Origin: Halolamina sp. CBA1230
GTDB taxonomy: Archaea > Halobacteriota > Halobacteria > Halobacteriales > Haloferacaceae
Reading direction: 5' to 3'
NCBI RefSeq assembly: GCF_002025255.2
Contig: NZ_CP054587.1
Span: forward strand, 496,001-560,000
DNA length: 64,000 nt
Shown in pieces: positions 5,786-58,935 of the stretch. The position numbers were made by a program, and so were the translations under genes. The notes under the pieces were generated by a model, which had not been told where the DNA came from, searched no databases, and was given only the letters and a program-made list of their open reading frames with translations. Position 1 is the stretch's first letter; every line of letters begins with the position of its first letter.

Positions 5786-8700
5786 ATGATAGAAAGGAAA
5801 CAGATGCGGGCCGTCGTCCTGGCAGTTCTGATGGTCGGGTCCGTCCTCACGGTCGGGGTGGGTAGCGTCGCGGCACAGCCATCACTCGCCGAGAACCAGG
5901 CGCCGTCGCTCGACGGGAACGGCGCGGTGCAGGAACTCGAACCGAACACCGCGGTGACGAACACGGAGCCCACGGCAGCGTCCATCGAACGGGACGACGC
6001 CGAAACGGCGAACGTCGCGAAGGAGCTCCGAAGGGCGGACGGCGAGCAGGTGCTCCTGCTGAGCGTGGAGCGGAACCTCGACCGTGACGCCGCCAGCTTC
6101 GCGTCCGTGGACGCCGACACGCTCCGGGCCGACTCGCGAGCGACGCTCCGCCCCGTCGCGGAGCAACTCACCGAGTTCGAGCACGTCGACATCCGGAACC
6201 AGTTCTGGGCAGGGAACGTGCTCTCGGTGGAAGTCGACCTCGACGAACACGACGTCGACCGGCTCGCAGCCATCGACGGCGTGACCGCCGTCGCGCCGAA
6301 CGCCGACGCCGTCCACCCGGCACCGCCGGAAGACGACACGACGATGATGGCGAGCACCGAGAGCAGCGGCGGCGACGACTACACGTACGGGCTCGAGCAG
6401 ATCGACGTGCCTGGGTTCGAGGAGCGCTACGGCGACCGTGGCGGGAACGCGACCGTCGCCGTCATCGACGACGGGATCAGCAACCCCGAGGCGGGTCACC
6501 CCGACCTCACGTTCGCGACCGAGGCGGTCGCGGTCAACGGCAGCGTCACCACGGGGACGCTCGGCAGTGCGGGCTCCCACGGTGAACACGTCGCCGGGAC
6601 GGCAGCCGGTGCCGCCGAGCCCGCGGGTGACGTCCCCCGATACGGCGTCGCTCCCGACTCCTCGCTCGTCATGATCAACGCCTTCGAAGGCGGTGCGACC
6701 GCCGAGGACATCCTCGCGTCGGTCCAGTACTCGGCGGAGCAGGACGTCGACGTGGCGACCATGAGCCTCGGCTTCGAGTCGACCACCGGGAACTCGGTGC
6801 TCATGACTGCGATGGAGGAGACGATCCAGGACGCCAACGCGGCGGGCACGCTGGTCGTCGGCTCGGCCGGGAACGCCGGCGCCGGCGACGACGGCGGGCC
6901 GACCACTTCGCCCGGCGCCGAGTTCTCCAGTTTCTCCGTCGGTGCCTCCAACGCGCAGGGTACTATCGCACCCTTCTCCAGCGGCGCCGTGATCAGCCCG
7001 TTCGCCGCGGAGTACGTGAGTGCTAACGGGAGCTACCCCGCGAACTACCCGCGTGAGTACGTCAAGCCCGACGTTGCCGCTCCCGGCGCCGACGTACTGA
7101 GCGCCGGGCCGCTCGGCACCGTCGTCGCGGACGACGCCGCGACGTACTCGACGAGTGGCGGGACGTCGATGGCCGCCCCGCACGTCGCGGGTGCGGCCGC
7201 GTTGATCCAGTCCGCGACCGAGGAGGAGCTGGCGCCGAAGACGATCCAGGCAGCGCTCGTGGAGACGGCCGCCAAGCCGGACAACGAGTTCGCCGAACGG
7301 CACGGGCGGGACATCCGCTACGGCGCCGGGGTCATCAACGTCACTGCGGCCACCGCGGCCGTGAAGTCGGGGACGATGGGGATCGAAGGCACGGTCACGG
7401 ACACCGACGGCGACCCGATCCCGGGCGCCGCGGTGACCAGCGAGGGCGACGCGCTCACGAGCGCGAACGTCTCGGGTGACTACACGCTCCGGACCACTGA
7501 CCAGTCGACCGAGGTCACGGCCGACGCGTTCGGTTACGAGGCGTCGAGCCAGGACGTCGATGACGGGAGCGCCCAGTTCACGCTGGACGACGCACTTGCC
7601 GTCGACCTGATCGAGGAGCAGAGCGAATACGCGGAGTTCGACGGACAGGTCGACGTGACAGTCGACGTGCGCAACCTCGACAACGTCACGGTCGAGCCCA
7701 CCCAGGCGACCGACGTCGACACGGGGAACCTGACGCTGCGGGTCGCCGGGGAGGAAGCCAGCTTCGGCGAGCCGGTCGAACTCGACGGGTACGACGGCCT
7801 CGTGAACGTCACCGTCGATATCGACGGGAACGCCAGCGTCGAGGAGAACGACACGATCGGGCTCGAACACACGTTCCAGGGGCTTGGCGAGAGCACGACC
7901 GTCGAATCCGGCCCGACGACGCTGACCGAGGAGCTCGATCCCGCGTTCTTCGAACTGGACGGGCTCACGGCTCCGGAGACGCTCGCACCCGGCGAGTCCC
8001 TCGACATGACCGTCGAGGTCACGAACACCGGACAGGTGGCGGACAGCAAGCTGATCCAGACGTTCGTGGACGGGCCCAGCGGCGAGGCAGCGGTGCCGCC
8101 CGAGGAGCTCAGCCTCGAACCGGGCGAGACCACGACGTACGAACTGTCGGCCAACGGGATCGGCAGCCTCTACGACGCCGGGAGCGTGCTCGACGTCGGC
8201 TTCCGGACTGCCGACGGTGAAGGGTATTTCGGCGATCTCACCGGGATCAACGACGAGATCTCCGCCGAACTCGCGCTCCAGGCACAGGGCGCGCAGTTCA
8301 GCGTGACGAGCCTCGAAGCGCCGACCAAAGCCGGCGCTGGCGAAGAGATACAGGTCAACGCGACCGTCGAGAACGTCGGCAGCGAGGCCGACCAGCAGAA
8401 CGTGGCGTTCCGGTTCGGGGCGGAGACGCTCGCGACCGAGACGGTCGAACTCGAGGCGTTCGGCCTGAGCGCTTCCGACAACGTCGTGAACCTCTCGTTC
8501 ACCGTGTCGGTGCCCGAGGAGCCCGACATTTACGAACACGGCGTGTACACCGACGACGACAGCGCGACCGGCGCGATCGCCGTCGACGAGTCGTACACCA
8601 ACGTGACCGTCGTCGAATCCGACGGGATATACGAACCTGGACAGGGCGAGCGGACGCTCTCGGTGTTCGAGGAGCATCTCGCGCCGCGGTACGCCACCGA

Positions 8701-49282: not shown

Positions 49283-52051
49283 ATGGCTACCGACGAGGGG
49301 GACTCTTCCCCGAGCCCGCTCGACGGCGAGGTGCAGGAGGACGTCGAACCCGGCGAGGGCGCCGGGTCGACTCCGGACGCCGTCGTCGGCTCGTACACCT
49401 GGGACGATTTCCTTCGCGAACACGGCGAGGCCGAGGCGGCGGAAACGCTCTACCAGCGGTTCGAGGAGACGCCCGGCAGCGAGCGCTGGGGGGAGGAGGA
49501 CCGTTCGCTGACACGGGAGGACTGGGAACGAACCGACGTCGACCCCGCGGAGTATCTGGGGTTCCCGCCGTGGGAGATCGAAGCCCGCATCGCGGCCGCC
49601 GCGGGGGTCGCCGGGGACATCACTGACTACTCGTCGCTGATCGGCTACGACCAGACGCCGGTGATCAAGGACATCTACGGCTGGGCGGACTACAAACGCG
49701 AGTACTTCTACGACGAGGACGGCGAGCCGCCGACCGACAGCGACGGCGAGCCCGAGACGTTCGACCCCGCCGAGGCACTGGGGTTCCCCCCGGAGTCGAT
49801 CGGCGCGACGATGGCCGACTGCGAGCGGGCGGGTGAGGAGCTGCAGGAGCTGATCGACGAGCGCACCGTCGACGTCGACGAGGAGATCGACGAGGACGCC
49901 TTCTTCTCGGACACGCATGGGCAGACGACCGTCGCCAACCGGTACGATCTGGAGAAGACCGTCCCGATCGCGAAGAAGCAACACTTCCGGGAACGGGACC
50001 GCTACTGGGTGAACAAACCCTACTCCTTCGTGGTGATCTTCCACTCGACGAAGGAGAACGAGATCAAGTACTACGTCGTCGAGCCCCACCTCACCGAGAT
50101 CGAGGACGACCTCACCGACTACCTGACCGACAAGCTTCGGGCGTCGATCAAGTACGAGGACGAGGGCGACACCGCGGGCGACGAGGCCCACCGGCGCTCG
50201 GTGATCGAGAACCGAACCCGGGAGCTGCTCGACCGCTACGACCTCTACGACGAGCCCGGCGAGCCGGGCGAACGCGGCGGGCTGGGCAACCGCGTCGCGG
50301 ACGCGTTCGGGCTCGACCCGGGCGAGGGCGTCTCCGGTCGCGTCGTCGATTTACTGGGGTACGAGGAGCCCGTCGACGGCGTCCACCAACTGGCGGGGAT
50401 CGAGGTCCGCCCCGAATGGGCCCTGCTGGAGGAGGACGACGACACGCTCAACGAGTACCAGGTCGAGAAGCTGCTGTACTACCTCGAACGCGACTTCATC
50501 GGCTACGAGCGCATCGACGGCATCAAACACGACATCAACGTCGAGGACATCTCGTGTGACGGGTACAACGCCCCCGTCTTCGTCTACCACACCGACTACG
50601 AGCAGATCATCACCAACGTCTACCACGGCGAGGACGAACTTGACGACTTCGTCGTGAAGCTGGCCCAGCGATCCGGGAAGGGGATCTCCAAGCGCCGGCC
50701 ACAGGTCGACGCCACCCTCCCGGACGGGTCGCGTGCCCAGCTCACGCTCGGCAAGGAGGTCTCCGACCACGGGACCAACTACACGATCCGCCAGTTCAAG
50801 GACGTCCCGTTCACGCCGGTCGACCTGATCAACTGGCAGACGTTCAGCCTCGACGAGATGGCCTTTTTGTGGCTCTGTATCGAGAACCACAAGTCGCTGA
50901 TCTTCGCCGGCGGGACGGCCTCGGGGAAGACGACCTCGCTGAACGCGGTGTCGCTGTTCATCCCGTCGAACAGCAAGATCGTCTCCATCGAGGACACCCG
51001 CGAGGTCGAGCTCCCCCAGCGCAACTGGATCGCCTCAGTTACGCGCCCCTCGTTCTCCGACGACGACAAGGGCGACGTCGACGAGTTCGACCTGCTGGAG
51101 GCCGCGCTCCGCCAGCGCCCGGACTACATCGTGATGGGCGAGATCCGTGGCGAGGAGGGGCGGACGCTGTTCCAGGTCATGTCCACGGGGCACACCACCT
51201 ACACCACGTTCCACGCCGACAACGTGGGGGAGGTGCTGAAGCGGTTCACCACCGAGCCGATCAACGTCTCGAAGACGATGTTCACGGCGCTGGACCTCGT
51301 CTCCATCCAGACCTCTACCCGGGTGCACGGCCAGAAGGTGCGCCGGAACAAGTCGATCACCGAGATCAACCACTACGACGCCGAGAACGACGAGATCAAC
51401 GTGCAGGACGTGTACCAGTGGCAGGCCGAGACCGACGAGTTCCTGAAGATGGGCGACTCGAACACCTTGGAGGAGATCATGTTCGACCGCGGGTGGGACC
51501 GCGACCGCCTCGACGACGAGATCTTCAAGCGCCAGACGGTGCTCGCCTACCTGATCTACGAGGGGCTCAACACGTACACCCAGGTCGCGGCGACGTTCCA
51601 GGCGTTCATCAACGACCCCGAGACGATCCTCTCGCTGATGGCCAACGACCAGCTGGAGGCCTCGCTCGAGGATCTCCGGGAGATGGAGTCCGTGCTGATC
51701 GACATCGACCCCGAGAAGGAGGAGATGGTCCCCCGTCCCGACCCGACCGACGAGATCCTCGAGGAGGCCGCGGGGATCCTCGAAGAGGCGGAGGAGCGAC
51801 TGTTCGAGAAGTACCGCGGCGAGACCCCCGACGCGGTCGCGGACGCGCTGGTCGACACCGAGCCACAGGGCAACGTCGAAGCGACGGTCGACGCCGCGGG
51901 CGAACTCCCCGCCGGGGCCGAGGAAAGCGTCGAACTCGACGAGCCGAACGATCGTGCGGCGCTCGACGACGGCAACGAGGAGGACGACTCGATCCCGGAA
52001 CTCGAATCGGGCGACGAGGACGACGACTTGGCGAGCGGGGGCGACGAGTAG
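49283..52051 (+). CDS. pilB: Type IV pilus assembly ATPase PilB
   Basis: 922 residues, first gene of the pilus operon. VirB11/GspE-like: long N-terminal region with YTWDDFLREHGEAEA, central FPKR-like region, Walker A GGTASGKTTS (~544-553), Asp box SIEDTREVELPQ, Walker B DYIVMGEIRGEEG and His box STGHTTYTTFH. The C-terminal ~120 residues are acidic. It powers pilus extension, cytoplasmic. The next gene starts directly after the stop codon (TAG ATG), indicating tight coupling. Confidence 0.95.
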   Translation: MATDEGDSSPSPLDGEVQEDVEPGEGAGSTPDAVVGSYTWDDFLREHGEAEAAETLYQRFEETPGSERWGEEDRSLTREDWERTDVDPAEYLGFPPWEIEARIAAAAGVAGDITDYSSLIGYDQTPVIKDIYGWADYKREYFYDEDGEPPTDSDGEPETFDPAEALGFPPESIGATMADCERAGEELQELIDERTVDVDEEIDEDAFFSDTHGQTTVANRYDLEKTVPIAKKQHFRERDRYWVNKPYSFVVIFHSTKENEIKYYVVEPHLTEIEDDLTDYLTDKLRASIKYEDEGDTAGDEAHRRSVIENRTRELLDRYDLYDEPGEPGERGGLGNRVADAFGLDPGEGVSGRVVDLLGYEEPVDGVHQLAGIEVRPEWALLEEDDDTLNEYQVEKLLYYLERDFIGYERIDGIKHDINVEDISCDGYNAPVFVYHTDYEQIITNVYHGEDELDDFVVKLAQRSGKGISKRRPQVDATLPDGSRAQLTLGKEVSDHGTNYTIRQFKDVPFTPVDLINWQTFSLDEMAFLWLCIENHKSLIFAGGTASGKTTSLNAVSLFIPSNSKIVSIEDTREVELPQRNWIASVTRPSFSDDDKGDVDEFDLLEAALRQRPDYIVMGEIRGEEGRTLFQVMSTGHTTYTTFHADNVGEVLKRFTTEPINVSKTMFTALDLVSIQTSTRVHGQKVRRNKSITEINHYDAENDEINVQDVYQWQAETDEFLKMGDSNTLEEIMFDRGWDRDRLDDEIFKRQTVLAYLIYEGLNTYTQVAATFQAFINDPETILSLMANDQLEASLEDLREMESVLIDIDPEKEEMVPRPDPTDEILEEAAGILEEAEERLFEKYRGETPDAVADALVDTEPQGNVEATVDAAGELPAGAEESVELDEPNDRAALDDGNEEDDSIPELESGDEDDDLASGGDE

Positions 52052-54079
52052 ATGAGTCTGGAACTCGGCGAGGGGCGCGACGACTGGGGGACGCTGGCGG
52101 ACGCGTTCTACCCGCTGTACGACCTCCTGTTCGACGCCGAGGGGGATTTCGCCGCCAACGTCGAGCAGAAGCTGACCGAGGCGCGGATGAACCAGGCGGT
52201 CGAACTGTACCTCTCGCGGGCGCTCGCGGTCGGCGTACTCGTGGGCGGCCTGCTGTGGGCGGTCGGCAGTCTCCTCGGGTGGGCGATCTTTGCGCTCGGG
52301 TTCGTCACCCCAGAGTCGCTCAGCCTCGGCCTCCCCGCCGGGAGCGCGGAGACCGCGGCGATGCTCGAGTCGGCGACGGTGCCCGCGGCGGTCCTGCTCT
52401 CGGGACTGGTGTTCGGCAGCCTCGGCTTCCTGATGGGCTTTGGCACGCTAGCGGCGATCCCCTACTCCCGGGCGTCGGCACGGAAACGGGAGATCAACAT
52501 GCTGCTCTCTGACTCGGTCTCCTACATGTACGCGCTGTCTGTCGGGGGGCTGAACCAACTGGAGATCCTCGAGTCGATGGCCCAGGCCGACGACACGTAC
52601 GGCGAGGTGGCAAAGGAGTTCCAGAGCATCGTCAACGAGACGGAGTACTTCGGCACCGACTACCGGAACGCGGTGCGCAAGCAGTCGATGGAGACCCCCA
52701 GCGACGAGCTCTCGCAGTTCCTCACGGACATGCTCTCCATCATCAACTCCGGCGGGGACATGGAGCAGTTCCTCTACGACAAGAAGGAGAAGCACATGCG
52801 CACCGCCAAGCAGGAACAGGAGACGACACTGGAGACCCTGGAGCTGTTCGGCGAGATGTACATGACCCTGTCGCTGTTCCCGCTGTTGCTAATCATCATC
52901 CTCGTCGTGATGAGCATGATGGGCAGCGGCCGCGAGAGGCTGATCTACGGCACCGTCTACGCGCTGATCCCGCTGACGGGGGTCGGCTTCCTGGTGATGA
53001 TCTCGACGGTAAAACAGGACGAGATCGGCGACGGCTACCTCTCGCCCCGGGACGGGAGCGAACGGCTCGAAGCCACACAGGAGGAGGGGCTGATCCACCT
53101 CGGCCTGATCGAGGCGTTCAAGGGGCGGTTCAGCGTCTTCGACCGCATCCGATCGCGTGAGGGGAACTACAAGACCAAGCAGCTGCTGTCGGCGCCGCAG
53201 ATCTTCTTCCGGGACAACCCGCTGTTCACGGTCGCGCTCACGCTGCCGACGGCGGCCGCAGTGGTGGCAGTGCTGTTCGTCAACGGCGCGATGCCGACGG
53301 CGTGGGACGGGATGATCGCGAACCCGATCTGGGGGACGGTCGCCTGGTACTACATCCCCTCGTACCTGACGCTCGTCCCGCTTGCGGTGTTCTACGAGTG
53401 GAACGGGCTCACGCGACGGTCCATCACCGGGAAGCTCTCGGAGAACCTCCGGAAGCTCTCCTCGGCCAACGACACCGGACAGACGCTGCTGGAGTCGATC
53501 GAAACCGTCGCTGATACCTCCTCGGGGAAGCTGGCCGACGAGTTCGAGGTGATGTACGCGAAGGTGAACTACGGGATGAGTCTGCGGGAGGCGATGGTCG
53601 AGTTCAACAACAAGTACCACATCCCGCGGCTGGCCCGGACGATCAAGCTGATCGCCGAGGCACAGGAGGCCTCCGGCCAGATCACCGACGTGCTGTCGAC
53701 GGCGGCCCAGTCCTCCGAGAACCAGGACGACATCGAGCGCGAACGCAAGTCCCGGACGCGGATGCAGGTCGCGATCATCCTGATGACGTACCTCACGCTG
53801 CTGGCGGTGATGGCGATCCTGAAGGTGCAGTTCCTCGACACCATGGCGTCGATGGGCGGGAGCGGCGGTGGGGAAGCGGCTGGCGCCGGTGGGCTCAGCT
53901 TCGGCGCCAGCATCGACACGCAGCTGCTCTCGCTACTCTTTTTCCACGCGGTGACGCTGCAAGCGATGCTCTCGGGGTTCATCTCGGGGTACATCCGCGA
54001 CGCCCAGATCATCTCCGGCGTGAAGTTCGTCGTGATCCTCCAGACGCTGGCGCTCGCGGTCTGGGTGGTGGTCGTATGA
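52052..54079 (+). CDS. pilC: Pilus membrane platform protein PilC (T2SSF/TadC family)
   Basis: 675 residues, two T2SSF modules with about 7-9 membrane helices in three clusters (~50-140, ~265-330, ~395-450, ~570-675). Characteristic stretches: YALSVGGLNQLEILESMAQA in the first cytoplasmic module and NLRKLSSANDTGQTLLESIE in the second. It anchors the pilus and transmits PilB movement. Four-base overlap with the next gene. Confidence 0.94.
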   Translation: MSLELGEGRDDWGTLADAFYPLYDLLFDAEGDFAANVEQKLTEARMNQAVELYLSRALAVGVLVGGLLWAVGSLLGWAIFALGFVTPESLSLGLPAGSAETAAMLESATVPAAVLLSGLVFGSLGFLMGFGTLAAIPYSRASARKREINMLLSDSVSYMYALSVGGLNQLEILESMAQADDTYGEVAKEFQSIVNETEYFGTDYRNAVRKQSMETPSDELSQFLTDMLSIINSGGDMEQFLYDKKEKHMRTAKQEQETTLETLELFGEMYMTLSLFPLLLIIILVVMSMMGSGRERLIYGTVYALIPLTGVGFLVMISTVKQDEIGDGYLSPRDGSERLEATQEEGLIHLGLIEAFKGRFSVFDRIRSREGNYKTKQLLSAPQIFFRDNPLFTVALTLPTAAAVVAVLFVNGAMPTAWDGMIANPIWGTVAWYYIPSYLTLVPLAVFYEWNGLTRRSITGKLSENLRKLSSANDTGQTLLESIETVADTSSGKLADEFEVMYAKVNYGMSLREAMVEFNNKYHIPRLARTIKLIAEAQEASGQITDVLSTAAQSSENQDDIERERKSRTRMQVAIILMTYLTLLAVMAILKVQFLDTMASMGGSGGGEAAGAGGLSFGASIDTQLLSLLFFHAVTLQAMLSGFISGYIRDAQIISGVKFVVILQTLALAVWVVVV

Positions 54080-54579
54080 GCCGACGGCGGGTCGTCGACG
54101 ACGACCGGGGGCAGATGGTGCTCGACTACGCGATCGGCGTGGGGATCTTCCTGATCGCGGTCACGTTTGTCGTCGCCACGATCCCGGGGATGTTCTCGCC
54201 GTTCCTCGGTGCCGGCGACACGCAGGTCGCCGACCGCGTCGCTACCTCGATGGCGACCGAGCGCCTCGGCGCACCCGACGAGCCGTACGTGCTGGACCGC
54301 GAGTGTACGGACGCGTTCTTCGAGCAATTGGACGACGACGGCACCGAGCCGTCAGCCGAGGACTGTCGGTTCGACACGAACGCGACCAGTCTCCAGCCGA
54401 TGTTCGGGCTGGACCCCGGCCAGTCGATCCAGGTTCGGATCGAGAGCACCAGTGACGGGGCGACGCTGGGAACGCTCGAGGCGGGGCCCGACGCGCCGAG
54501 CAGCGTCTCGGTCACGACCGCGCGACGGATCGTCACTATCGACGGCTCGACGTACTGGCTGGAGGTGCGTGCGTGGTGA
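54076..54579 (+). CDS. Pilin-like protein 1 (DUF7287-like)
   Basis: 167 residues. Short charged N-terminus DDDRGQMVLDYAIGVGIFL followed by one membrane helix (to ~38) and an extracellular C-terminal domain. The DRGQ before the helix mirrors the prepilin-type signal of the other proteins here. A minor pilin is likely. Overlaps pilC by four bases. Confidence 0.82.
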   Translation: MSRRRVVDDDRGQMVLDYAIGVGIFLIAVTFVVATIPGMFSPFLGAGDTQVADRVATSMATERLGAPDEPYVLDRECTDAFFEQLDDDGTEPSAEDCRFDTNATSLQPMFGLDPGQSIQVRIESTSDGATLGTLEAGPDAPSSVSVTTARRIVTIDGSTYWLEVRAW

Positions 54580-55190
54580 GCGACGACCGCGGGCAGGCAC
54601 GGGCGCTGGAGGCGATCACCGCGGGGATGCTGCTGCTGGCCAGCCTCGCGTTCGCGCTGCAGGTCACGGCGGTCACGCCGCTCACCGGGAGCACCTCCAG
54701 CCAGCACATCGAGAACCAGCAGGCCAAGATCGCGGAGGGGGTGCTTGCCGCCGAGGCCGAGAACGGGACCGTCGTGCCGACGCTTTTGGCCTGGAACGAG
54801 AGCGGCCACTTCGACGGTGCTGAATTCGGCGGCTTCCACGGTGGCGGCCCGCCAACCGCGTTTGGGAACGTGCTCGATCGGACGCTCCGGGAGCGAAACA
54901 TTGCGTTCAACGTGAACGTGTTCTACGTCACCAGTGATGGCGAGCGCAATCGCCGCCCGCTTCAGTTGGTTGATCTGGGCTCACCCTCCGACCACGCGTC
55001 GACGGCTACACGCTCGTTCACGCTGTACGACGACGACGTGCTCCACGATATCGACGAGTCCACGGAGCGGGCGGAGCCGACGGATACGACACTCGGGGAG
55101 GAGGACGGGAACTACTTCGCCCCCGATATCGACGGCGACAGCCGGCTGTACAACGTCGTCGAGGTGGAGGTGGTCGTATGGCGGATGTAG
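54576..55190 (+). CDS. Pilin-like protein 2 (DUF7288-like)
   Basis: 204 residues. N-terminus VSDDRGQARALEAITAGMLL, one membrane helix, then a mainly beta C-terminal domain. GTG 54576 overlaps the preceding stop as GTGA (GTG 54573 is an alternative). Minor pilin by context. Confidence 0.82.
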   Translation: MSDDRGQARALEAITAGMLLLASLAFALQVTAVTPLTGSTSSQHIENQQAKIAEGVLAAEAENGTVVPTLLAWNESGHFDGAEFGGFHGGGPPTAFGNVLDRTLRERNIAFNVNVFYVTSDGERNRRPLQLVDLGSPSDHASTATRSFTLYDDDVLHDIDESTERAEPTDTTLGEEDGNYFAPDIDGDSRLYNVVEVEVVVWRM

Positions 55191-56125
55191 ACGACCGCGG
55201 CCAGCTCATGCTCGTCGGGGCCCTCACGCTGGCGGTGATGTTCGTGGCGCTGGCGGTGCTGCTCAACGCCGCCATCTACACCGGCAACGTCGCGACGCGC
55301 GATGCCGGCCCGGGGACGGGCGAGGCGATCGAGTACGAGGGCGAGGCGACGGCGATGTCCCGGGCGGTCCTCGAGTCGATCCACGAGAGCGGTAGCGAGT
55401 ACGCCGCGCTGAACGAGGAGTTCAACCGGACGGTCGAAGGGTGGAGCGGCGCCGCGGGCACCCACGTGACGGTGGCGTTGGCCGACACGGAACTGGCGGA
55501 GATCGACACCACGCGCGGGACGCGAATCTCGCAGTCGACCGACCGGAACTTCACGGACACGGAGGGGAACCCGAACTGGATCGTCGCCGACGACACGCAG
55601 AGTCGAGCGTTCCGCATGAACGTGACCCGGGAGTCGCTCGTGTCGTCGGACACGCCGATCGACGACGGGGCCTTCCGAGTGACGTTCACCGAGAGCGGGG
55701 ACGACGACGTGTGGAAGGTATACCTGCATCAGGAAGGGACAGATGACGTGTCCGTGACCGTCCTAGACCCGGACGGGAACGACGACACCTGCACCGTCGA
55801 GACCGGCGAACGCGCAGTAATCGACATCACCGCCGGCACCGTCGACGGCGAACCGTGTCCGGAGATGCGCTTCTTCGGGAACCTCTCGGAGCCGTACACG
55901 ATCCGGTACGTCGACGCGGTCGACGGCGGGGATGACCAGGTCGAAGGGACCTACTCCGTGGTCGTCGACCGACCGCGCGACAGCCTCGACACCGGCGCCC
56001 GCGAGGGGGACCAGCCGTCGGCCGTGCGGACGCTGTACAGCGCCGAACTCCGCGTGACGTACCGGTCGGCGAACGTCTACTACCAGTCGGAGTTCCGGGT
56101 CGCGCCGGGTGAGCCCGATGCGTGA
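55178..56125 (+). CDS. Pilin-like protein 3 (DUF7261-like)
   Basis: 315 residues. N-terminus MADVDDRGQLMLVGALTLAV, membrane helix to ~30, then a large extracellular domain with several N-x-S/T sequons, consistent with glycosylation. Overlaps the previous gene by 13 bases. Confidence 0.82.
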   Translation: MADVDDRGQLMLVGALTLAVMFVALAVLLNAAIYTGNVATRDAGPGTGEAIEYEGEATAMSRAVLESIHESGSEYAALNEEFNRTVEGWSGAAGTHVTVALADTELAEIDTTRGTRISQSTDRNFTDTEGNPNWIVADDTQSRAFRMNVTRESLVSSDTPIDDGAFRVTFTESGDDDVWKVYLHQEGTDDVSVTVLDPDGNDDTCTVETGERAVIDITAGTVDGEPCPEMRFFGNLSEPYTIRYVDAVDGGDDQVEGTYSVVVDRPRDSLDTGAREGDQPSAVRTLYSAELRVTYRSANVYYQSEFRVAPGEPDA

Positions 56126-56669
56126 GGACCGCCCGTCGGCGTTCACCGACGACGACCGCGGCGTGTCGACGACGCTGGGGTACACGCTGACGCTCTCGAT
56201 CACCGCGGTGCTGATCGCCGGCCTGCTGATCGCCGGCGGGACGCTGATCGAGAACCAGCGGGCGGCGATCGTCAACGACGAACTGACCGTCTCGGGCCAA
56301 CAGCTCGCCGGCGGCTTCGAGGACGCCGATCGGCTCGCCGACGCCGCGAGCAGCGAGAACAGCAGCGTCGCTGTGAACGTCTGGCTCCCCGACGACGTCG
56401 GCACCGGCGGGGAGTACTCGCTCAGGCTGGTGAACCACTCCACAGCGGACGGACAGCCGGCTAGCGGCACCATCGTCGTCACTGCCGAGAGCGTCGACGT
56501 GAGCCGGAACGTCAGCTTCCGAACCCAGTACCCGATCGCGAACGACACGCTACCCGGCGGCCCGGTGACGATCCGGTTCGCCGACGGCGACGAGGACGGG
56601 GATCGAGAACTGGTAGCTTCACCGGCCGACGAGCGGGGCCTCGCCGCCGACGAGGAGGGGGACTCGTGA
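56118..56669 (+). CDS. Pilin-like protein 4 (DUF7266-like)
   Basis: 183 residues. FTDDDRGVSTTLGYTLTLSI has the RGVS prepilin-peptidase-type site of haloarchaeal pilins, followed by a helix (~22-45) and an extracellular domain with sequons. ATG 56118 overlaps the previous stop; GTG 56109 is an alternative. Confidence 0.83.
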   Translation: MREDRPSAFTDDDRGVSTTLGYTLTLSITAVLIAGLLIAGGTLIENQRAAIVNDELTVSGQQLAGGFEDADRLADAASSENSSVAVNVWLPDDVGTGGEYSLRLVNHSTADGQPASGTIVVTAESVDVSRNVSFRTQYPIANDTLPGGPVTIRFADGDEDGDRELVASPADERGLAADEEGDS

Positions 56670-56730: not shown

Positions 56731-58257
56731 ATGATGCGTACCGATCGTGGCGTCTCGAGTGTCGTCGGCGTGGTGTTGCTACTCGGCATCACCATCATCG
56801 GCACCGGCGTCGTCGTCGGGATCGGCGCCCAGGCGTTCGCCGACGCCGAGCGGACGACCACGGTCTCACAGGCCCAACACTCGCTGACGCAGTTCGACTC
56901 ACAGGCCGCGATCGTCGGGCTGGGCGAGAGCAGTTCCCAGCGCGTCGAACTCGGCCCCTCGGGTAACGGTGAGTTCGTCGCCGAAGACGACTCGGGGTGG
57001 ATCGAGATCGTCCACCACAACGCCACCGGCGAGGACAAGAACGAGACGATATACAACGCCTCGCTGGGGTCGGTGAGCTACCGGAACGGTGACGTGGAGA
57101 TCGGCTACCAGGGCGGCGGCGTCTGGGAGCGACGGGGCAACAGCAGCGTGATGCGCTCGCCGCCGGAGTTCAACTACCGCCGCTCGACGCTCACACTGCC
57201 CGCGATCCGGGTCGTCTCCGACTCGCAGGCGTCGGGACGGACGAGCGCAATCGTGACGCAGGGCGAGGAGCACGAGTCCCGGAAGGTGTACCCCAACGAG
57301 TCGGTCCACGACGACGGCGAGTCGTGGGACGACGAAGGCGCGCCTTACGGCGACAACAGCACGTACGCGAACCCGATCAACAACGGGACCGTCAACGTCA
57401 CCGTCCAGAGTCGGTTCTACCAGGGATGGGCCGAGTTCTTCCGATCGCGGACGAGCGGGAACGTGACCGTCGATCACCGACGCGAACGCGCGAGCGTGCA
57501 GTTAGTAACGGTTGATACGGTCGAAGAGTTTGAACTCAGTGAAACAACCGGTACTTGGGGGCTTACAGCGCGTGGGCAGGCGCCAGGCCATAGTCTTACC
57601 GATCTCAATACGACCTATATCAATAACAACCAGGGAAAGGGGACGACTTTCTATAACTCCCATCTTGGATACTATTTCGAATCAGGTGCTGAAAGTTTCG
57701 AATACATCGTCCATGTTCCGAAGGATGAGTCCGGAACCATAGGATTGAGCCTCTTCTATAAGAATACGCGAACCGATGTCCAACATGAATGGTCAAACAA
57801 CGATATACCGATCAATAGCGGGCCGATCCGAGTCAGCGACGACGGAAAGAAGTTGGTCATCAACCTTACTGCGGGGAACGCGACCCACGGGACGAATCTA
57901 ACCTACGGAGACGCCGATAGCACAGGCGCACAAGGGGACTGGGAGAATACCGGGACCCACCCGAACGAGATTTCGTTCAATCATGATGACGACGGAGAGA
58001 CAATCACGTTTGATGTCGGCGATGATCACAGAGATCAAGCAACGACATATCTCCTTGCTCGACACTACATCGCACTTCTTGGGGACGAGTTCACGATCTA
58101 TGGTACTGACCGGGGACAGGGTGGTTCCGGCAGTGGAAAGGGGACAAAGATCGACACCAGCGCCTCTACCGGCGTGCTCGACTACGAGACGAGCGGCCGG
58201 CAGTACATCGCGTACCTCCACGTGACCGAAAACGAGATCGAAGTCGAACTGGAGTAG
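56731..58257 (+). CDS. Pilin-like protein 5 (DUF7289-like), large and mosaic
   Basis: 508 residues, about twice to three times the size of the preceding pilin-like proteins. TDRGVSSVVGVVLLLGITII has the RGVS site. The exterior domain has many Asn and sequons. Bases ~57500-58155 (residues ~256-475) are markedly A/T-richer (25 G/C of 60 at 57601-57660) than the flanks (41 of 60 at 57301-57360), with codons such as ATA, AAT and AGG absent elsewhere. The frame is intact across both borders. Probably an exposed, variable surface part. Confidence 0.88.
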   Translation: MMRTDRGVSSVVGVVLLLGITIIGTGVVVGIGAQAFADAERTTTVSQAQHSLTQFDSQAAIVGLGESSSQRVELGPSGNGEFVAEDDSGWIEIVHHNATGEDKNETIYNASLGSVSYRNGDVEIGYQGGGVWERRGNSSVMRSPPEFNYRRSTLTLPAIRVVSDSQASGRTSAIVTQGEEHESRKVYPNESVHDDGESWDDEGAPYGDNSTYANPINNGTVNVTVQSRFYQGWAEFFRSRTSGNVTVDHRRERASVQLVTVDTVEEFELSETTGTWGLTARGQAPGHSLTDLNTTYINNNQGKGTTFYNSHLGYYFESGAESFEYIVHVPKDESGTIGLSLFYKNTRTDVQHEWSNNDIPINSGPIRVSDDGKKLVINLTAGNATHGTNLTYGDADSTGAQGDWENTGTHPNEISFNHDDDGETITFDVGDDHRDQATTYLLARHYIALLGDEFTIYGTDRGQGGSGSGKGTKIDTSASTGVLDYETSGRQYIAYLHVTENEIEVELE

Positions 58258-58371: not shown

Positions 58372-58935
58372 ATGTCCCAGGAGCCCGAAACCGACGACGA
58401 AGACGCCAGTTCGGCGCGGGAGCGGCTCGAGGAGAGCGCCGACAAGGCGATCGGCGAGTTCGATCAGGGCGTCGTCGACCTGCTGGCGTGGCTGCTCGAC
58501 ACCGAGACGCGGGCGCGGATCTACGTCTACCTCCGACAGCACCCCGCCAGCACCAGCGAGGAGGTCGCCGAGGGGACGGGGCTATACCCGAGCACCGTCC
58601 GCGAAGCGCTGGCCGAACTCCACGAGGAGGAAACCGTCATCCGCGGGAAACGCGAGAGCGAGGGCGCGGGCAACAACCCCTACGAGTACGACGCCATCTC
58701 GCCCAGCGAGCTCGTCTCCGACGCGGTCGGCCAGGTGCAGAGCCAGCTCAACGCGGTGTTCAACCTCGACGACCGCCTCAGCCGCGGCGAGGAGGGCGAC
58801 GACGAGGGGCCGGTGACTATCTCCGTCAGCGACGGCGACGGGGAGGCCGACGACGGCGGGGACACCGACGACCAAGCGGAGGACACCGAGAACGCGAGCG
58901 ACGCCGACTCGTCCGACGCGGCCGAGAGCAAATGA
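58372..58935 (+). CDS. ArsR/TrmB-like winged-helix regulator
   Basis: 187 residues. HTH at ~45-110: LLDTETRARIYVYLRQHPAS, then EEVAEGTGLYPSTVREALAE, wing with GNNPYEYDAI. The last ~55 residues are a very acidic disordered tail. It sits at the 3' end of the pilus operon and shares its promoter motif, so it may regulate the operon and itself. Confidence 0.85.
   Translation: MSQEPETDDEDASSARERLEESADKAIGEFDQGVVDLLAWLLDTETRARIYVYLRQHPASTSEEVAEGTGLYPSTVREALAELHEEETVIRGKRESEGAGNNPYEYDAISPSELVSDAVGQVQSQLNAVFNLDDRLSRGEEGDDEGPVTISVSDGDGEADDGGDTDDQAEDTENASDADSSDAAESK

Follow-up and report, generated by a model that had tools for sequence, protein, structure and literature searches.

Introduction

Among the type IV pilus systems of haloarchaea, Makarova et al. 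described a PilB4-type system with extra N- and C-terminal domains and its own pilin set (PMC4858521), and a review linked two relatively large pilins to PilB4-C4 of H. volcanii (PMC4371748). Elsewhere, PilB of S. sanguinis is a modular type IV pilin with a large extra domain (PMC8179133), and in UpsA of the Sulfolobales an experimental swap of a poorly conserved pilin region alters partner recognition (PMC7064770). Recombination within genes has been reported for the S-layer genes of Haloferax (PMC5867893), and replacement of DNA segments for Haloquadratum (PMC3119063). The locus studied here resembles the PilB4-type operons of haloarchaea in having a large non-PilB3 ATPase, a TadC protein and its own pilin-like genes, including a long one; it differs in the foreign-looking middle segment of the long pilin gene, a feature not described in either account of these operons (PMC4858521; PMC4371748). 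We consider it likely, with a probability of roughly 0.8, that homologous replacement put a divergent, A/T-richer DUF7308 allele into this last pilin-like gene of a PilB4-type operon.

Results

The window, a 64-kb stretch (C1:496001-560000), is part of the main contig in a Halolamina genome of 3.47 Mb. The gene of interest (56731-58257, forward strand) encodes an archaeal type IV pilin-like protein of 508 residues, with DUF7289 at the N end (residues 6-191) and DUF7308 at the C end (residues 279-486); the Pfam matches to Pilin_N, DUF7289 and DUF7308 score 26.2, 70.6 and 149.3 bits against curated cut-offs of 25.2, 27 and 27, respectively. It is the last gene of an operon on the same strand, in which a 922-residue pilus assembly ATPase of the PilB4 type (49283-52051; T2SSE in Pfam) and a TadC/PilC-like membrane protein (52052-54079; T2SSF) are followed by four smaller pilin-like genes, assigned by Pfam to DUF7287 (54076-54579), DUF7288 (54573-55190), DUF7261 (55178-56125) and DUF7266 (56109-56669). 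The ATPase is distinct from the PilB3 of this genome, since the best match in a PilB3_C search lies elsewhere (C1:399389, 100 bits, versus only 31 bits for the operon ATPase). With such an ATPase, a TadC protein and pilins of its own, the operon fits the PilB4 type, and to judge from its size and the literature the ATPase would be an orthologue of H. volcanii PilB4. H. volcanii, too, has a DUF7308 gene.

Two neighbours of the long pilin gene deserve mention. The DUF7261 protein is also fast evolving, with 51-65% identity to congeners, normal GC at third codon positions (GC3) and normal synonymous identity to the sister genome, G006. Directly downstream, a gene at 58372-58935 gives weak matches, below cut-offs, to Lrs14/Sta1-type transcriptional regulators and is kept beside the pilin gene in Halolamina congeners; its product is a possible regulator of the operon.

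An A/T-rich segment in the largest pilin-like protein, as the original prediction had it, was confirmed. Between 57500 and 58155 the GC content is 0.508, and GC at codon positions 1, 2 and 3 is 0.537, 0.431 and 0.555, compared with 0.617, 0.480 and 0.895 in the N part of the same gene, the third-position deficit thus holding over the full interval. Along the gene, GC3 starts at 0.90, is down to 0.56 from approximately 57472 to 58146, and then recovers. When scanned at a width of 655 bp, the segment is the lowest in GC of the whole 64 kb, and in a 400-kb sample of the same chromosome, which served as the GC background, 0.27% of stretches of this width are as low, at two sites. One of these (C1 ~1789822-1791856; L118:9822-11856) adjoins a 388-residue integrase-like open reading frame and, judged by eye, is likely an integrated element. 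The other (C1 ~940151-942006; L112:151-2006) is a whole low-GC gene of 476 codons, probably acquired, whose product looks, by eye, like an AlbA/Schlafen-type ATP-binding protein.

The borders of the segment are sharp. A change-point scan of GC3 placed the left border at 57472 (57460-57502) and the right border at 58146 (58135-58171), with likelihood ratios of 80-82; 200 shuffles of codons within amino acids gave at most 20. The segment so delimited, by synonymous and amino-acid divergence as well as by GC3, spans approximately residues 248-472 and most of DUF7308. Upstream lies the native N part (56731-57471), with the prepilin N-terminus, the hydrophobic segment and DUF7289, a GC3 of 0.90 and 74-79% identity to congeners; downstream, residues 478-508 (58162-58254) form a native C tail. 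The reading frame and the pilin N-terminus are kept across the segment, as had been proposed, and the exchange was placed correctly in the central and C-terminal part, except that the last ~30 residues are native again. Three of the codons that had been named as rare in the neighbouring genes are strongly enriched over background, namely AAT (32 versus 0.3 per 1000 codons), AGT (18 versus 3.6) and ATA (9 versus 0.3), as are TAT (28 versus 0.3) and CAT (23 versus 0.6); the enrichment of the fourth, TTT, is weaker (9.2 versus 1.9, two codons only). The protein encoded by the segment is still acidic and halophile-like, with a D+E fraction of 0.15 and a K+R fraction of 0.06.

Relatives of the gene occur in Halolamina salifodinae, H. 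pelagica and H. rubra, and the gene has the same neighbours in six other Halolamina genomes, the comparison resting on one genome per species. In G003 and G004, two of the six, the DUF7308 gene is broken across reading frames, for which sequencing errors may be responsible. Apart from the one studied here, every Halolamina allele has a normal GC3 in DUF7308. In a core-protein tree the genome of the window groups with G006 (support 99/98), and against this sister the gene is a mosaic, with 79% identity in the N part, 36% in the middle and 93-94% in the tail; the value for the middle is the lowest among 81 pairs with an N-part identity of 0.70-0.80. Where residues are identical to those of G006, the same codon is used at 134 of 179 positions in the N part (0.75), 27 of 63 in the middle (0.43) and 25 of 29 in the tail (p = 1.9e-6), and the synonymous identity of the other operon genes and downstream genes is 0.70-0.83.

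The segment is a divergent allele of DUF7308, of which every congener has its own version, and not a new or added module. It is closest to the alleles of other Halolamina species (49-56% identity), compared with at most 40% for G006, and the G006 allele is therefore unusual as well, though its GC3 is normal. In a tree of the segment alone, vertical descent with G006 was not rejected. The G006 allele (L056, gene 6988-8406) is the most divergent in the genus, with 32-36% identity to congeners in residues 291-475, and may itself be another replacement, older or G/C-rich.

Could the segment have arisen in place? Under this alternative, DUF7308 evolves fast through diversifying or relaxed selection, and A/T-rich codons accumulate without any import. 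DUF7308 does outpace both gene ends at the protein level in many other pairs, for example G088/G117 (identity 0.94 in the N part, 0.69 in the middle and 0.93 in the tail); such pairs, however, retain a normal GC3 and a nearly undiminished synonymous identity, whereas here both shift, with sharp borders on both sides. Across 67 DUF7308 genes, the present one alone shows such a drop in GC3, the difference between domain and N part being -0.34 (z = -7.5), against a mean of 0.004 (sd 0.046, minimum -0.09) for the other 66. Because the domain is fast elsewhere without a synonymous drop, general fast evolution is to be separated from DNA import in this genome, and we regard an origin in place as improbable. 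Four other haloarchaeal pairs (L027/L018, L029/L018, L044/L075 and L140/L142) show high-low-high identity across the gene with synonymous divergence not raised, a pattern that reflects fast protein evolution of DUF7308. Such evolution in many haloarchaea is consistent with a surface recognition module.

Foreign composition, sharp borders, raised synonymous and amino-acid divergence and native flanks on both sides mark the segment as a probable replacement, and the proposal of exchanged DNA is supported. The mosaic of amino-acid identities and the sharpness of the borders speak for it independently; low GC3 and low synonymous identity are partly dependent signals, since A/T-rich third positions alone lower identity to G/C-rich alleles.

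A variable middle between conserved ends is also the typical trace of programmed variation, in which silent cassettes or invertible DNA supply an expressed gene; Neisseria pilE and shufflons are examples. In Neisseria pilE, a conserved N end is combined with a variable pilin exterior that undergoes antigenic variation. The gene studied here shares the conserved N end and the variable exterior but is a single locus without silent copies: at the protein, DNA and Pfam levels alike, a genome-wide search found one copy and none of the silent cassettes envisaged elsewhere in the genome, and at the segment borders only short, low-complexity matches were found, with no convincing repeats. Neisseria-like switching is therefore not supported, and programmed variation of any such kind seems very improbable. 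The original prediction, taken as a whole, is partly supported.

A donor was not found in genomes sampled across the family, order and class, where the top matches were still Halolamina alleles; given that these reach only 49-56% identity, the DNA must have come from a lineage outside the sample. As a variant of replacement that concerns the source only, the imported allele could have arrived via a plasmid or virus and not directly from a cellular chromosome. The smaller contigs of the genome have a GC content of 0.535-0.69 in sampled stretches, and relatives of the whole protein occur on some haloarchaeal plasmids, though distant ones (<60% identity); against this, the segment has no match in plasmid, phage or viral-contig collections and no copy on the other contigs of the genome, and we think such a route unlikely.

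Structure prediction of the full-length protein was poor (pLDDT 40). The DUF7308 domain was modelled as mostly beta; of five models one reached moderate confidence, and it had no significant fold match in structural comparison; a search for solved structures related by sequence found none. An internal duplication relating the N and C domains was not supported by profile comparison.

Discussion

In the replacement that we favour, the donor DNA would have come from a halophile with lower GC3, and recombination would have run through the conserved left flank FYQGWAEFFR.RT.G.V.VDH and the conserved right flank GVLDYE...YLHVTENEIEVE. Recombination via such flanks would keep the assembly part of the protein and change the exposed domain alone. 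The event would be recent enough that base composition has yet to adapt. More tentatively, the domain may be displayed on the pilus, and contact with partners, surfaces or viruses may be what favours its diversity.

Recombination inside the gene of a surface protein recalls the haloarchaeal S-layer genes (PMC5867893), from which the present case differs in affecting a whole domain of a pilin-like gene and in having a donor clearly different in base composition. Like S. sanguinis PilB (PMC8179133), the protein carries a large additional domain beyond the pilin module; the two domains are unrelated by sequence, DUF7308 is without a known ligand, and here an allele was exchanged, with no new module grafted. 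As in UpsA (PMC7064770), a pilin region is poorly conserved, in a different pilus family and over ~220 residues here compared with 15-22 there. By analogy with these pilins, DUF7308 may be a contact module. We speculate further, and rather doubtfully, that it could serve PilB4-type haloarchaeal pili as their recognition module, repeatedly swapped between lineages via conserved flanks and setting which partners, surfaces or viruses are met.

PilB4-type haloarchaeal pili are without an established function in the literature consulted. A domain that varies far more quickly than the protein around it, and that in one lineage was exchanged nearly whole while the assembly parts stayed, marks the part likely making outside contact, and the natural DUF7308 alleles, with their defined borders, provide material for swap tests.
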